IMG/VR virus record: IMGVR_UViG_3300028388_004838
Coordinates: 1 to 24,898 of that record
Length of the DNA: 24,898 nucleotides
Reading direction: 5' to 3' (one strand)
DNA from: a virus
Positions within the stretch are counted from its first letter, which is position 1. The number at the start of each line of letters is the position of its first letter. This document shows positions 9 to 13,990 of the stretch, in pieces. The translations under genes and the position numbers were made by a program. Under the pieces are notes generated by a model. It made no database searches and had not been told where the DNA came from. It saw only the letters and a program-made list of their open reading frames with translations.

Positions 9-20
9 GGATGCCATCCC
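9..20. repeat. Dispersed palindrome, 12-base copy
   Basis: GGATGCCATCCC, one base short of the GGGATGSCATCCC palindrome found throughout this window. It abuts the GC-rich hairpin at 18-35 and shares its last bases with that stem. It is one of the few copies outside a coding region. Confidence 0.7.
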
Positions 21-40
21 GCGCCGAGGCGCGGGCTCCG
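18..40. repeat. Left GC-rich hairpin, one arm of an inverted repeat flanking the MuB gene
   Basis: Bases 18-35 form a perfect stem of eight GC pairs around a two-base GA centre. Bases 19-40 are the exact reverse complement of 820-841, so the MuB-type gene is bracketed by 22-base inverted repeats. There is no T-run, so it is not a classical terminator. It could be a REP-like element, an mRNA-stability hairpin or a protein-binding site. Confidence 0.75.
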
Positions 41-819: not shown

Positions 820-841
820 CGGAGCCCGCGCCTCGGCGCGG
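820..841. repeat. Right GC-rich hairpin, second arm of the repeat flanking MuB
   Basis: Exact reverse complement of bases 19-40. It folds by itself into CCGCGCC/GGCGCGG around a TC centre. It sits between the MuB stop and the AAAGGAG ribosome-binding site of the next gene, so it may affect mRNA stability or translation there. Confidence 0.75.
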
Positions 842-2750: not shown

Positions 2751-3185
2751 ATGAGAAACAGCAACTACGCGCATTTGCGTTATTACCGCCTGCTGTCGAT
2801 TGCAAAAAAGCAGCTCGACATGGATGAGGACAGCTACCGCTCGCTGCTCGCACGCTGCGGTGCAAAGGAATCAAACGGGAAAGTCAGCGCAACTAGCATG
2901 ACGATTCCCCAACTGGAGCAAGCGGTAAACGAGATGAAACGGATGGGTTTTCGGATTGTCGCAAACCCCAACTCTCCAAGCCCCAAGCAGTGGGGTATGT
3001 TCTCGTATCTCTTGACTCAGAACGGTTACGATGGCGATGACGATCCGGGTTTCCTGGCATTCATGCGCCATACCGTCAAAACCGACGATGTGAAGAACCT
3101 GAGCAGAAAGCAGATGAGCAACTTAATCACCGGCCTGCAACGCCGTATGCGGACGTCTTCTAATAAGGAGGAAACATGCGTATAA
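2751..3185 (+). CDS. gemA: GemA family regulatory protein (Mu gp16-like)
   Basis: A 144-residue member of the GemA/DUF1018 family of Mu-like phages. The hallmarks are an N-terminal helical block (LRYYRLLSIAKKQLDMDEDS, then YRSLLARCG), a central segment ending in LEQAVNEMKRMGF, and a C-terminal half opening with PSPKQWGMFSYL. Mu GemA is an early protein reported to alter host gene expression and DNA topology; its exact biochemical activity is unclear. The start has GGAGG in CCCTGGAGGACATCACATG. This is one of the strongest signs, with MuB, that the element is a transposable phage. Mor, which normally follows nearby, is not recognisable here. Confidence 0.9.
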   Translation: MRNSNYAHLRYYRLLSIAKKQLDMDEDSYRSLLARCGAKESNGKVSATSMTIPQLEQAVNEMKRMGFRIVANPNSPSPKQWGMFSYLLTQNGYDGDDDPGFLAFMRHTVKTDDVKNLSRKQMSNLITGLQRRMRTSSNKEETCV

Positions 3186-3202
3186 AAGGAATATTGACAT
3201 GA
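3176..3202 (+). other. Eight-codon leader ORF with a strong ribosome-binding site
   Basis: AAGGAGG at 3165-3171 is one of the strongest Shine-Dalgarno sites in the window. It precedes an ATG at 3176 that encodes only MRIKGILT before TGA at 3200. That stop overlaps the ATG (3199) of the next gene as ATGA. The mini-ORF also overlaps the last codons of gemA. It probably delivers ribosomes to the 58-codon gene by coupling, or is a remnant. Confidence 0.4.
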
Positions 3203-3375
3203 GACCAATCTTATTCATGCCGCATGTCGATGATCTCCGCTTGAAATATAGAAGCGAGGTGGAAGCGTTTGCAAAGCGTGACGGGTTTGACAACGTTACG
3301 GATTTTATCAGTTTCTTTGCGGGACGGTATAAGCTTCCGTTTGATGGTGATGTGTATCGGTGGCGATTAGTCTAA
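3199..3375 (+). CDS. Small hypothetical protein
   Basis: A 58-codon ORF with AAAAGGA about nine bases upstream of its ATG. The product is rich in aromatic and charged residues (RDGFDNVTDFISFFAGRYKL, ending DGDVYRWRLV) and looks like a real small folded protein. No family recognised. Its stop overlaps the stop of the convergent RAYT gene by a few bases, so the transposase gene ends exactly at its 3' end. It might be a remnant or an intact small regulator after gemA. Confidence 0.55.
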   Translation: MRPILFMPHVDDLRLKYRSEVEAFAKRDGFDNVTDFISFFAGRYKLPFDGDVYRWRLV

Positions 3376-3959
3376 TCAACCTCAATCAAAAACTCCCGCA
3401 CCGCGCGATAATCACTCAACATATCGTGTACCTGTAATAACTTATCCAAGCCGCCGAAGATGTCCAAGGCGGCTTTTTTATCGGCGATGCCCGTAGCCGT
3501 TCCGCTCAACTGCGCCCACGAACTCCAGCGCCACTCGCGCCAATCCGCCATGATGCCGTGATGCGTGGGATTATAATGGATATAATGAATCACGCTTAAA
3601 GCATACGCTTCCGTGTTGACATGGATACGGCGAAACGGCTTGCGCATCAAATTACCGCAGCGGCCCCGGCGAAAGTTTACGGCCTGCGCGTATTCCTTAA
3701 ACGCCTGGCGCATCATATCCGGTACCTCTGTTGCCGGCTCAGGGATGACATCCGGCACAAAAATCAGCATGTGAAAATGATTAGGCAGTAGACAATATGC
3801 GCAAATATTGATTTTATCTAAGTGTTTGCTAAGCTTATCAAGGAACAGAAGGTACTCATCATCATCACAAAAAAGCTTTTCCATGCCGTTTGCGCGGTTG
3901 AATACGTGATAATATGAGCTTTGCGCAAACACAGCGCGGTATTTTTGCAGTAATGGCAT
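3372..3959 (-). CDS. REP-associated tyrosine transposase (RAYT, Y1 HUH family)
   Basis: A 195-residue HUH single-strand DNA transposase of the REP-associated type. The HUH metal site is H61-F-H63 in LLPNHFHMLI. The catalytic tyrosine is probably Y126 in VIHYIHYNP, matching the YIHxNP signature of RAYTs. N-terminal YHVFNRANG is also typical. RAYTs cleave and are thought to spread short palindromic REP sequences; no TnpB partner is present, which separates it from IS200/IS605. It is on the minus strand among plus-strand phage genes, looks more AT-rich than its neighbours, and probably entered the phage later. It contains a palindrome copy at 3742-3753. Length is within the family range and all visible catalytic residues are intact. 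Confidence 0.9.
   Translation of the reverse strand: MPLLQKYRAVFAQSSYYHVFNRANGMEKLFCDDDEYLLFLDKLSKHLDKINICAYCLLPNHFHMLIFVPDVIPEPATEVPDMMRQAFKEYAQAVNFRRGRCGNLMRKPFRRIHVNTEAYALSVIHYIHYNPTHHGIMADWREWRWSSWAQLSGTATGIADKKAALDIFGGLDKLLQVHDMLSDYRAVREFLIEVD
3742..3753. repeat. Dispersed palindrome inside the RAYT gene
   Basis: GGGATGACATCC, read on the minus strand within PDVIPEP of the transposase. The transposase therefore carries the same repeat as the surrounding phage genes. Confidence 0.6.
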
Positions 3960-3998
3960 CGGATAACACCCAAGACGAAATTAAAGTTAAACAGCATT

Positions 3999-4196
3999 AT
4001 GGATTGTCCGCACTGTTCAAGCAAGATGAATGTTTACGGCACCGTGCGCTATAGCGCCGTGGTGTTGCGTTATCGCTCGTGCAAGGCGTGCGGGCATAAA
4101 CTCATATCAGCAGAAGAAACCACGGGACGGCATCCCAAATGCAGGAAACCGAAATCACAGCGGCAGTTGCCGCTGCCGTTGCAAGAATCAAACTGA
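3999..4196 (+). CDS. Zinc-ribbon protein, possibly an Ogr- or Com-like regulator
   Basis: A 65-residue protein with C3-x2-C6 and C28-x2-C31. The spacing, the opening MDCPHCSSKM and the SCKACGHKLISAEE segment resemble the zinc ribbons of P2 Ogr/Delta late activators and NrdR. The C-terminus is basic and ends in a low-complexity PLPL stretch. Ogr proteins activate phage late promoters, so a role in switching on the following virion genes is an attractive inference; Mu Com, a zinc-binding translational activator, is another option. No good ribosome-binding site is seen. The end overlaps the MuF start by 58 bases. Confidence 0.65.
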   Translation: MDCPHCSSKMNVYGTVRYSAVVLRYRSCKACGHKLISAEETTGRHPKCRKPKSQRQLPLPLQESN

Positions 4197-5512
4197 GACA
4201 GGCGGTAATAAAAGACGATGCCGCGTTTGAGCGCACGTACACGGCGCTTCAAGATGCGCTAAGCCGGTCATGGGATAAGCAGGTACGCGAAGCCTTGACG
4301 GCTTCGCTTGAACGCCTGGCGCAACTTGGCGCGGGCGAATTCAGCAAAGCCGATGCGGAAATTCTCATGTACGCGGTCGAGCGTTACTTGGGGCCGGATG
4401 CCATGATAGCCGCAACGCGAGGCCCGGCGCTGGAATTCTCCGCGCTGCTGTATGAAATCGGCTGGAAAGAAGTTAGGGATGCCATCCCAACCGGCGTAGA
4501 TTTAACCTTCAAGCAGCCAGACTTACGCGCTCTTGAACTCACCCAACGCGCCAATCTTTACTGGATTGGCAACAGTTGGAACAGCTATACGGACGGGCTG
4601 TTTCGGAATGCACTCAAGGACTATTACGAACAAGGCTACAGCCGTAAGAAACTGATGGACAGGATGGCATCCGACTTTGCCGGGTTGGGTGAACGCGGCT
4701 ATGTGTACTGGGACTTAATGGCCGATCATACCGCGACCAAAACGCGGGAAATCGGGCGCATCGGCGCGTATGACGCGGGCGGTATTGAATACGTGCAGGT
4801 GCGTGCGCATCTCGACCAGCGCACCACGCCGATATGCCGCAGCTTGCACAATCGGATTATCCCCGTGTCCAGGCTCAAACAGCAGCGTGACGATTACCTG
4901 AATGCCACGTCTGAGCGTAACGAATACGCGGCCAAAGAAGCATGGACGATGCACGGCGCGGACGCTAACCTGGACGGCGTGAATACCAACAAACTGCCGA
5001 GGGGGACGGCGATGCCGCCGTATCACTTCAGATGTCGGACAATTACCGTGGCGTACTTCAAACCGTCACGGGATGCCATCCCAACAGTGCAGCACGGCGA
5101 CGGCATGAGCCCAGCGCAACGGCGCAAGGTGGACGCGCTGAGCGCCCAGGAACACGCCGCCAACGCGCGGGACATACGCGCCAATGCCAAGACGCTGCAA
5201 TTCAATGAAAAAGATTTTCGCAACGACTTGCGCAAGGCTATACTTAAACATGCTGAGCAAGATTATGGGATTACCGACGCGGCGGAATACCTTGAGCAAG
5301 CCAGAAAAACAGTCGCCAGCGCCGACCATGTATCGGTGCGTGATTACAAAGGCGGCTTGCAATACTCGTTTTTGTCAACCAAAGAAAAAGGCTATGCCGT
5401 GGTGGACATGAATCTGCAACTACGCGGCTGTTATGGACACGTCAAAGAGGGGGCGATAGAAAAATGCCTGCGCGAAAATTTAGAGAAGTATCAGACCATG
5501 ATCATGTTTTAA
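4139..5512 (+). CDS. MuF-type head morphogenesis protein with a probable C-terminal toxin domain
   Basis: A 457-residue protein. Residues about 130-305 are a MuF domain (SPP1 gp7/Mu gp30 family), a minor head protein bound near the portal. The signature DQRTTPICRSLHN and the closing PPYHFRCRT, with its His and Cys, are clear. A linker (about 306-360) leads to a 100-residue C-terminal domain not needed for the MuF fold, with VSVRDYKGGLQYSF and GYAVVDMNLQLRGCYGHV. Its beta-hairpin look resembles BECR-fold RNase toxins seen at MuF C-termini; this is inference. Two palindromes lie inside (4476, 5070), read as RDAIP. The start overlaps the previous gene and its ribosome-binding site is weak, so a later start is possible. 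Such MuF fusions are known as temperate-phage polymorphic toxins. Confidence 0.88.
   Translation: MQETEITAAVAAAVARIKLRQAVIKDDAAFERTYTALQDALSRSWDKQVREALTASLERLAQLGAGEFSKADAEILMYAVERYLGPDAMIAATRGPALEFSALLYEIGWKEVRDAIPTGVDLTFKQPDLRALELTQRANLYWIGNSWNSYTDGLFRNALKDYYEQGYSRKKLMDRMASDFAGLGERGYVYWDLMADHTATKTREIGRIGAYDAGGIEYVQVRAHLDQRTTPICRSLHNRIIPVSRLKQQRDDYLNATSERNEYAAKEAWTMHGADANLDGVNTNKLPRGTAMPPYHFRCRTITVAYFKPSRDAIPTVQHGDGMSPAQRRKVDALSAQEHAANARDIRANAKTLQFNEKDFRNDLRKAILKHAEQDYGITDAAEYLEQARKTVASADHVSVRDYKGGLQYSFLSTKEKGYAVVDMNLQLRGCYGHVKEGAIEKCLRENLEKYQTMIMF
4476..4488. repeat. Dispersed palindrome, perfect 13-base copy
   Basis: GGGATGCCATCCC within the MuF gene, read as VRDAIPT. Confidence 0.8.
5070..5082. 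repeat. Dispersed palindrome, perfect 13-base copy
   Basis: GGGATGCCATCCC in the linker between the MuF domain and the C-terminal domain, read as SRDAIPT. It marks the fusion point of the probable toxin domain. Confidence 0.8.
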
Positions 5513-7961: not shown

Positions 7962-9100
7962 AAGCTTTTTAGCAAGTCTAAGGCTTTGTCCAGTTGGGTC
8001 TCTTGAGAGTCCATTACATCCGGCGGCGTGACATCCGTCCCCACAAACCGGATTCCATCCCACGGGATACCCAACTCTGCCAGCAAGGGGCGCAATAAAT
8101 CCCGCACACGGCGGCGGCGGGGTTTCAGCGTATATTCTTCAAACACATGCAATTGCCCGGCGACTTCAGAACCACCGCCCAAACTGCCAGAGGTGACAAT
8201 ACCCAACATGCGCGGCGGCACGCCGTGGGCAATCGGGATTCTATCCCGCGCGGCGTCCAGCAACTTGAGAAAATCGCCGTCCTTGAAATCGCCGGTCAAC
8301 TTTTCAAACTTCAAATCTGCCGTTTCGTCGGTCAAATGCAGGTACAGCGTCTTATGAGCATTATCCAAGCCCTGAAATTCCCGCTGGAAAAAGCCCTTAA
8401 CGGCGTCCAGTTGGCCTTCGGAAAGCTGACTGCCCTTAGTGACGATGGCGTACTCCGGCAGGCTCTTGTTGCTGAAAAACTGCTGATTGAAGCGCACCGC
8501 AGCATACACAAGTTCAATCATCCCCGCCCCGGGAATCCACGCGGGCATCGCATAATAGCCGCCGGACGGACAGGCATAACGCAAGTGCAGGATGGCATCC
8601 GGCGGGAAGTATTGCGCCAGTTGTTCACCGTTGGGCGTCGTTGTGAGTTGAGTGTAACTGCGTTCGTCGGCGTTGCGGTACATGGTGACGGCGGGCAAGT
8701 GGCGGATTTCGCGTATTTTCTTATTGCCGTCGCGGACAATTTCCGCAAAGGCATTGCCGTAGGTTTCCAGGTCTACCCCTAACGACACAAACAAATCCGC
8801 AGCACCATTGGGCATCAGCGCTTCCAGCGTGCTCGCGCCAGCCCCCTCAATGCCTCTGCCAAAAGCCCCTTCAGCTTTGATGTGGATTGAGCGCCCGTGC
8901 TCGGCGCTGTATTGGTACAGGCTGAACAGCGCGGCGGGGTCTACCTGCCACGCGATCAGGTTGTCATGTGCGCCCGGCGCGGTGAACAGTTGCGCGAATG
9001 AGAAGCCGCCCGGCAAAGTCGATTTGATTACCGCCCCCCCGCTCGCTGAGCTTGTCGAAGCGATAGGCCGTTTAGGTTTAAAAAAATCCGTCAGTGTCAT
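7958..9100 (-). CDS. Portal protein, PBSX/P2 gpQ family
   Basis: A 380-residue portal protein. The protein forms the dodecameric ring through which DNA enters the head and onto which the tail is built. Recognised by the overall pattern of the PBSX family (P2 gpQ): DLETYGNAFAEIVRDGNKKI, the IREIRHLPAVTMYR segment, PAWIPGAGMIELVYAAVRFN, and the C-terminal ARDRIPIAHGVPPRMLGIV with VAGQLHVFEEYTLKPRRRR. Length is close to P2 gpQ. The start has GGGGGAT upstream in the divergent region. It leads the minus-strand operon portal, membrane peptide, terminase, gp10-like. Confidence 0.93.
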   Translation of the reverse strand: MTLTDFFKPKRPIASTSSASGGAVIKSTLPGGFSFAQLFTAPGAHDNLIAWQVDPAALFSLYQYSAEHGRSIHIKAEGAFGRGIEGAGASTLEALMPNGAADLFVSLGVDLETYGNAFAEIVRDGNKKIREIRHLPAVTMYRNADERSYTQLTTTPNGEQLAQYFPPDAILHLRYACPSGGYYAMPAWIPGAGMIELVYAAVRFNQQFFSNKSLPEYAIVTKGSQLSEGQLDAVKGFFQREFQGLDNAHKTLYLHLTDETADLKFEKLTGDFKDGDFLKLLDAARDRIPIAHGVPPRMLGIVTSGSLGGGSEVAGQLHVFEEYTLKPRRRRVRDLLRPLLAELGIPWDGIRFVGTDVTPPDVMDSQETQLDKALDLLKSL

Positions 9101-12752: not shown

Positions 12753-13118
12753 ATGAAATACCTGGCTGATTCCGTGCCGGTGGATGCCTACCAGAGTTTC
12801 ACCGATTCAAGCGTGACGCTGGATTTGGCGGTGGCCCGTTCGTTCCGGGTGACGATGAGCGGGAACCTGACGATTAATTTCACCCACCCGCCCGCCAGCG
12901 GACGGGTATATCACGTCCTGCTGGCATTGACGCAGGACGGCGTAGGTACGCGCAGCATCAGCGCATGGCACATCGGCGGGGTCGCCAAAACACCGGCCTA
13001 TTCCGACAAGGCCGCGCCCGTGCTGGCCAGCGGGGCCGGGGCGCGCACGGATTTGCATGTGATTGTGTGGGGGGACGGGACCCTCACCGTAAAATTAGCG
13101 GGCTTTGACGTAGGATGA
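12753..13118 (+). CDS. Small beta-rich virion surface protein
   Basis: A 121-residue protein with short alternating hydrophobic segments (SFRVTMSGNLTINFTHPPAS, then RVYHVLLALTQDG) and a C-terminal DLHVIVWGDGTLTVKLAGFD, pointing to an all-beta fold like fibre-tip or decoration domains. It is coupled to the next gene by an ATGA overlap and belongs to the three-gene surface cluster. No firm family. Confidence 0.65.
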   Translation: MKYLADSVPVDAYQSFTDSSVTLDLAVARSFRVTMSGNLTINFTHPPASGRVYHVLLALTQDGVGTRSISAWHIGGVAKTPAYSDKAAPVLASGAGARTDLHVIVWGDGTLTVKLAGFDVG

Positions 13119-13990
13119 TTTCGCACAACTACGCCACCCGACAGCGCACGGCCAAAACCGTCTATTCCGTGCGGCAATTGTATTCGCAGATTTCGGGCTA
13201 TTGCTTGCGCGTGCGCCGGGCGTCTGACAATGCCGAGCAGGATGTGGGCTTCAGCGGTGGGGCGCTGGACACCGTCAGCCTGTCCGCGTTTTGCGGGGCG
13301 TCCGCAGGTTATCTCTCGGTCTGGTACGATCAGACCGGGTATGGACTCGACATGAGCCAGACCAATACCTCGTTGCAGCCCATGATTTACGACGGCAGCG
13401 TGGTTCTGACCGCTGATAACGGCAAGCCGGCGCTCAAATTTGACGGGGATTATATTTTTGTGCCCAATAGCAGAGGGGATTTCACCTACCTGCACAACGG
13501 TACATCAAGCAGCGTGTTTATGGTGGTGAGTCCGGGTCTGGTGTCGAATCCTAACGCGGGCTACAGCCTGATCATGAACAACGGCGGGGCCTCCTACAAT
13601 ATCGGGGCCTCTCTGGGCTATGAGGACCGCTCAGTCTACGGCTTCAACGACACGCTGAGCGTAGGCGTCACCAATGGCATCACTTCGCAGCCCTCCATCG
13701 ACAACCGACCCAACAACGTCATCACGCCCAATGTCAGCCACATTGTGAGCGTGTTTATTGATGCGGGCGCGGCGGTGGCCGCTGACCGGGTGACGGGCTA
13801 TGTGGACAATGTGAACGCGGGGTTTGCCAATACGCATACCCGTGCGCCGAGTCTCGCCATGTCGACCAATTTCATGCAAATCGGCACCCTGAGTGGATAC
13901 CTGCAAGAGCTGGTTTTTTATAACAGCGACAAATCCGCTGACCGGAGCGCGATAGAGGCTGACATGAACGGATACTACGGGATTTACTGA
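13115..13990 (+). CDS. Surface protein with arabinofuranosidase-B/ConA-like carbohydrate-binding fold
   Basis: A 291-residue protein. The N-terminal part matches the arabinofuranosidase B catalytic-type fold found in many phage fibres: VYSVRQLYSQISGYCLRVRR, SDNAEQDVGFSGGALDT, a WYDQTGYG motif and NGKPALKFDGD. This concanavalin-like beta sandwich binds or hydrolyses polysaccharide. The C-terminal half (from about residue 110) is also beta-rich with LYLQELVFYN-like LamG character and ends ADMNGYYGIY. The whole likely binds a host surface glycan; enzymatic activity cannot be judged. ATGA overlap with the previous gene. Confidence 0.8.
   Translation: MISHNYATRQRTAKTVYSVRQLYSQISGYCLRVRRASDNAEQDVGFSGGALDTVSLSAFCGASAGYLSVWYDQTGYGLDMSQTNTSLQPMIYDGSVVLTADNGKPALKFDGDYIFVPNSRGDFTYLHNGTSSSVFMVVSPGLVSNPNAGYSLIMNNGGASYNIGASLGYEDRSVYGFNDTLSVGVTNGITSQPSIDNRPNNVITPNVSHIVSVFIDAGAAVAADRVTGYVDNVNAGFANTHTRAPSLAMSTNFMQIGTLSGYLQELVFYNSDKSADRSAIEADMNGYYGIY

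Follow-up and report, generated by a model that had tools for sequence, protein, structure and literature searches.

A RAYT-family gene as a probable accessory acquisition between gemA and an Ogr-like gene in a Mu-like phage

RAYTs have been described as settled chromosomal genes, inherited mainly vertically at close range (PMC6006769). The window, by which we mean the whole stretch of 24,898 nucleotides that was analysed, is a lone virus record (IMGVR_UViG_3300028388_004838). The features of the locus are as follows.

2751-3185, plus strand: gemA (PF06252, E 6.8e-10), the left neighbour, which adjoins ogr in relatives
3186-3998: extra stretch between gemA and ogr, 813 nt
3199-3375, plus strand: 58-codon phage-type gene (PHROG 8581, E 1.4e-6)
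3372-3959, minus strand: RAYT-family HuH/Y1 gene, 195 aa, ATG to TAG, no internal stop
3376-3998: largest possible RAYT insert
3448-3479, plus strand: terminator-like hairpin on the strand opposite to RAYT, with an 8-bp stem AAGCCGCC/GGCGGCTT, a 12-nt loop and a T run
3582-3584, minus strand: catalytic codon Y126
3742-3754, plus strand: imperfect palindrome copy within the RAYT gene, GGGATGACATCCG
3771-3773, minus strand: catalytic codon H63
3777-3779, minus strand: catalytic codon H61
3999-4196, plus strand: Ogr/Delta-like zinc-finger gene, a putative late regulator (PF04606, E 0.0016, below the gathering score)
4139-5512, plus strand: MuF-like minor head gene (PHROG 241, E 7.5e-14), the first virion gene past the insert

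The gene order in the window runs from a MuB-like ATPase (PHROG 296, E 6e-25) and GemA, across the insert, to the Ogr-like and MuF-like genes, a P2-type terminase and portal, a protease, the capsid and tail genes. As the contig starts at MuB and MuA is expected leftward of it, MuA and the phage ends lie outside the window. The lineage would appear to combine transposition and early genes of Mu type with packaging genes of P2 type. An earlier note, made from the sequence alone, had placed the RAYT between the early and the virion genes, and this is indeed its position, with MuB and GemA to the left and MuF, terminase, portal and capsid to the right. The note had also put the gene where Mu carries Mor. 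The location after the early genes is correct, but the regulator slot is still occupied by the Ogr-like gene beyond the RAYT, a probable late regulator whose start lies 39 bp past the RAYT start. The regulator has kept its place, and the RAYT precedes it in opposite orientation. Mu and KS10, a transposable Burkholderia phage in which mor directly follows gemA, share with the window the succession of MuB, GemA, a regulator and then head genes. The window differs from both in that its regulator is Ogr-like, its packaging genes are P2-like and an insert separates gemA from the regulator.

For the 58-codon gene on the left of the RAYT, tblastn found similarity (E 3e-5) to the C-terminal part of gp22, which is an early gene of KS10, but no homologue among the 87 related phage loci described below. 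The two ORFs overlap by four bases at their stops (TAA at 3373-3375 and the RAYT stop, the reverse complement of 3372-3374), and the overlap claimed in the earlier note is thus borne out by the ORF coordinates. A weak palindrome spanning the two stops, GATTAGTCTAATC, was dismissed on its fold (z about -0.5). Elsewhere in the window, a GC-rich hairpin sequence of 21 nt, GGAGCCCGCGCCTCGGCGCGG, occurs on either side of the MuB-like gene in two exact copies of inverted orientation (19-39, minus strand; 821-841, plus strand). None is expected by chance, the sequence is absent from the 248 loci compared and it looks REP-like or terminator-like. In the structural region, the protein encoded at 13115-13990 partially matches an arabinofuranosidase catalytic domain (PF09206, E 3.5e-8) and is perhaps a host-binding part.

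The window protein is a real but divergent member of the RAYT family. The NCBIfam model NF047646 (REP_Tyr_transpos, REP-associated tyrosine transposase) was covered along its whole length (E 1.1e-14), with a score of 54.6 bits that falls short of the curated cut-off, 80; several accepted-looking chromosomal homologues likewise score below that value. Chromosomal RAYTs matched the window protein with E-values as low as 3.6e-23. Both the HuH motif and the catalytic tyrosine within Y---NP are present, and when the protein was aligned with 21 RAYT homologues, residues H61, H63, Y126, N130, P131, S146 and S147 were invariant. Pfam gave no match, which carries little weight because the same library also missed the E. 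coli RayT. A structure was predicted with AlphaFold from the window protein and three homologues on viral contigs (pLDDT 76). The best Foldseek match to this model was 4er8, the E. coli RAYT (E 1.8e-6), and alignment with VIA-align gave a Z of 15.0 over 151 residues for 4er8, against 8-9.2 for IS608/IS200 transposases. A fold search of BFVD returned no clear viral homologue, PADLOC assigned no defence family and Rfam gave no match. Profile, invariant residues and predicted fold therefore agree with the earlier description of an intact minus-strand RAYT with H61/H63 and Y126.

We sought to establish whether the gene is extra by comparison with related phages. Terminase searches gathered 87 related loci, 35-54% identical in terminase, a few of which duplicate one another. 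None of them carried a RAYT when scanned with a RAYT HMM. An Ogr-like gene was detected by iterated HMM in 61 of these relatives, and in 54 it adjoins gemA on the same strand. The gap between the gemA stop and the ogr domain has a median of 0 nt in these 54 loci, does not exceed 236 nt in 53 of them and reaches 548 nt in the remaining one, against 813 nt in the window. The gene is thus an insertion relative to the relatives that lack it, and we regard it as accessory because it is absent from all 87 loci and because gemA and ogr are nearly gapless in the 54. The same gene at the same place in all related phages, which the earlier note had linked to a resident phage gene, was not what we found (0/87). 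The junction can accommodate small genes, since three relatives (L018, L019 and L033) have short ORFs there, about 50-61 codons long and on the same strand. DNA similarity between the window and the relatives is too low to place the exact insertion boundaries. The empty site was seen at a distance (terminase identity of at most about 54%), and the RAYT may be resident in a nearer clade beyond this sample. The GC content of the RAYT is 48%, compared with a phage average of 56%, and its codon usage is within what the other genes of the phage show, which suggests either that it is not a very recent arrival or that it came from a donor host of similar usage.

Among known proteins the closest relationship is to RAYT/TnpA-REP (class 2 TnpA-Y1; NF047646; E. 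coli RayT, PDB 4ER8), with which the window protein shares the HuH motif, Y---NP, the SS tail motif, the fold and the layout of a single small gene lacking IS ends. It differs in being carried by a phage, in its long branch, in the absence of the W-Q guide motif and in having flanking REPs no more often than chance: one REP-like structure was found within 1 kb of the gene, against 1.1 expected, and there was no repeated family of REPs with a GT[AG]G foot. The W-Q(x)R and E-H residues that read the GTAG guide (PMC6006769) are not conserved, the W-Q segment reading G-N-L-M-R-K-P-F in the window. The motifs found here (NHFH, M-R where W-Q is expected, YIHYNP, SS) match no published subclass set (PMC6006769). 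Subclass 2.6 (group 5, Bacteroidetes) and similar short proteins, from an Aureibacter plasmid and from contig L191, are of similar length and likewise lack a C-terminal HTH. However, the HuH-Y spacing is 63 residues in the window against a median of 82 in 2.6, WQ is missing and the grouping is unsupported in the tree. Subclass 2.1 is marked by a long C-terminal extension with an HTH; the 195-aa window protein is without the extension that the ~285-aa homologues carry. In the RAYT tree a long branch leads to the window protein, which falls between the E. coli type and all other members and belongs to no starred group. The highest identity over the whole alignment was 34%, to the Aureibacter plasmid protein. 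The HuH/Y1 fold is also common to the TnpA of IS200/IS605 elements (IS608, ISDra2). The fold match to these is weaker (Z about 9), they have Y---NQ where the window has Y---NP, and the window gene lacks IS ends.

Phages very seldom carry RAYTs. Four RAYT queries against 50,697 GenBank phage records returned one match, an unverified metagenomic scaffold, whilst 12 of 72,556 plasmid records matched the window protein. Scanning IMG/VR with profiles, within the limits set by their peptide patterns, turned up about ten viral contigs, of which several represent bacterial flank or a contig edge. Direct search of IMG/VR and GTDB contigs revealed no close relatives. On two viral contigs, L190 (5086-5948) and perhaps L246 (5337-5600), a RAYT or RAYT fragment lies beside packaging genes, which is possible further phage carriage; on a third, L243, a RAYT gene lies near a holin gene. 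Contig L191 (3468-9886) has a RAYT-like gene (8007-8582) between a cas9-like gene (RuvC_III, HNH_4) and cas1 and cas2. The best chromosomal matches to the window RAYT were 35-38% identical, about 900 sampled genomes yielding no potential donor above 38%, and neither a second host nor a second phage bearing this RAYT was found. We found no report of a phage-borne RAYT in the literature searched, in which journal coverage was partial.

Taking these data into account, we consider it likely that the RAYT is an accessory, moron-like gene, acquired on the opposite strand between gemA and the Ogr-like gene by the lineage of this phage. Its orientation, opposite to that of its neighbours, was counted in favour of this reading. 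A resident gene, long held by a narrow clade of phages and serving the life cycle, for example in replication or regulation, would also account for the phage-like codon usage, for the tight packing in which the RAYT stop overlaps that of a phage gene and for the terminator-like signal of the early operon inside the RAYT gene. That signal, the hairpin at 3448-3479, has a predicted energy of -14.5 kcal/mol (z -3.98, with 0/200 shuffles as stable) on a 36-nt stretch and a z of -1.85 on 50 nt, and it may terminate plus-strand early transcripts. However, the gene is missing from 87/87 related loci and from nearly all phage records, and we judge residence to be unlikely. An assembly chimera of phage and bacterial DNA, which a single virus record might invite, is the least probable reading of all those considered: phage genes abut the RAYT on both sides, and gemA and ogr have the same order and orientation as in the 54 relatives.

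A further reading is that the phage has its own working REPtron, in which the RAYT recognises, acts on or has spread the dispersed palindrome GGGATGNCATCCC and influences how it spreads through the DNA of phage or host. The palindrome is over-represented in the window, with 35 matches within 3 mismatches against 8.3 expected, and 22 places within the 24.9 kb match with at most one mismatch. It is absent from the 87 RAYT-less relatives, is not repeated in any other viral contig and is rare in 398 Pseudomonadota genomes. Its copies favour poorly conserved residues (p 0.03). However, RAYT and palindrome occur together in a sample of one, and enrichment at indels is weak (p 0.09). Most copies lie inside genes and several are at ungapped positions, one of them inside the conserved terminase segment GDVILDEFAW, so that they are not clear insertions. 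The flanks of the perfect copies have no GT[AG]G foot, and the residues that would read such a guide have changed (M-R for W-Q). As the earlier note had stated, the RAYT does contain a copy, at 3742-3754, but this copy is imperfect and at chance level (about 0.5 expected in a 588-bp gene, given 22 in 24.9 kb) and no significance can be attached to it. The palindrome is more readily seen as a sequence signal maintained through codon choice than as an element that has transposed, and we hold a phage-borne REPtron to be very unlikely. Less probable still is that the RAYT arrived as its own insertion sequence, either IS200/IS605-like or a TIRYT with terminal inverted repeats. The protein does belong to the HuH/Y1 family, and subclass 2.1 RAYTs have been described with inverted repeats of the form GGGG[AT][CG]A[CG] (PMC6006769), but no such repeat was found near the window RAYT, searches of the ends of the insert found neither paired repeats nor subterminal hairpins, and the record holds no second RAYT copy.

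Under the accessory reading, the RAYT most likely entered by ordinary illegitimate recombination between genes, as no element ends are visible. The arrangement resembles the morons of temperate phages, which are accessory genes, in that a single opposite-strand gene lies between conserved phage genes and is absent from relatives. It differs in its cargo, which is a transposase-family nuclease, and in the apparent lack of a clear promoter for that gene: a scan upstream of the RAYT revealed no sigma-70-like promoter, and the terminator-like hairpin was found for the opposite strand only. That hairpin may end the early operon within the insert and thereby uncouple ogr from gemA. TnpA-REP cuts and rejoins REP hairpins (PMC6006769, PMC8266576). 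Because the complete HuH/Y1 centre is kept, the window protein is predicted, by analogy with its family, to use Y126 to nick and rejoin single-stranded DNA at a hairpin. The targets probably lie in a host chromosome, and the gene is probably dispensable for phage growth.

The gene belongs to a family already known, although its carrier is unusual, and it is additional cargo rather than a new system. The protein fits no described subclass, and the conserved gemA-ogr junction offers a clear empty-site comparison for the insert. The patchy distribution of RAYTs among phyla implies that some vehicle transfers them horizontally (PMC6006769). A phage of transposable type with a complete RAYT inside it is a concrete candidate for such a vehicle, one by which RAYTs may move between hosts.
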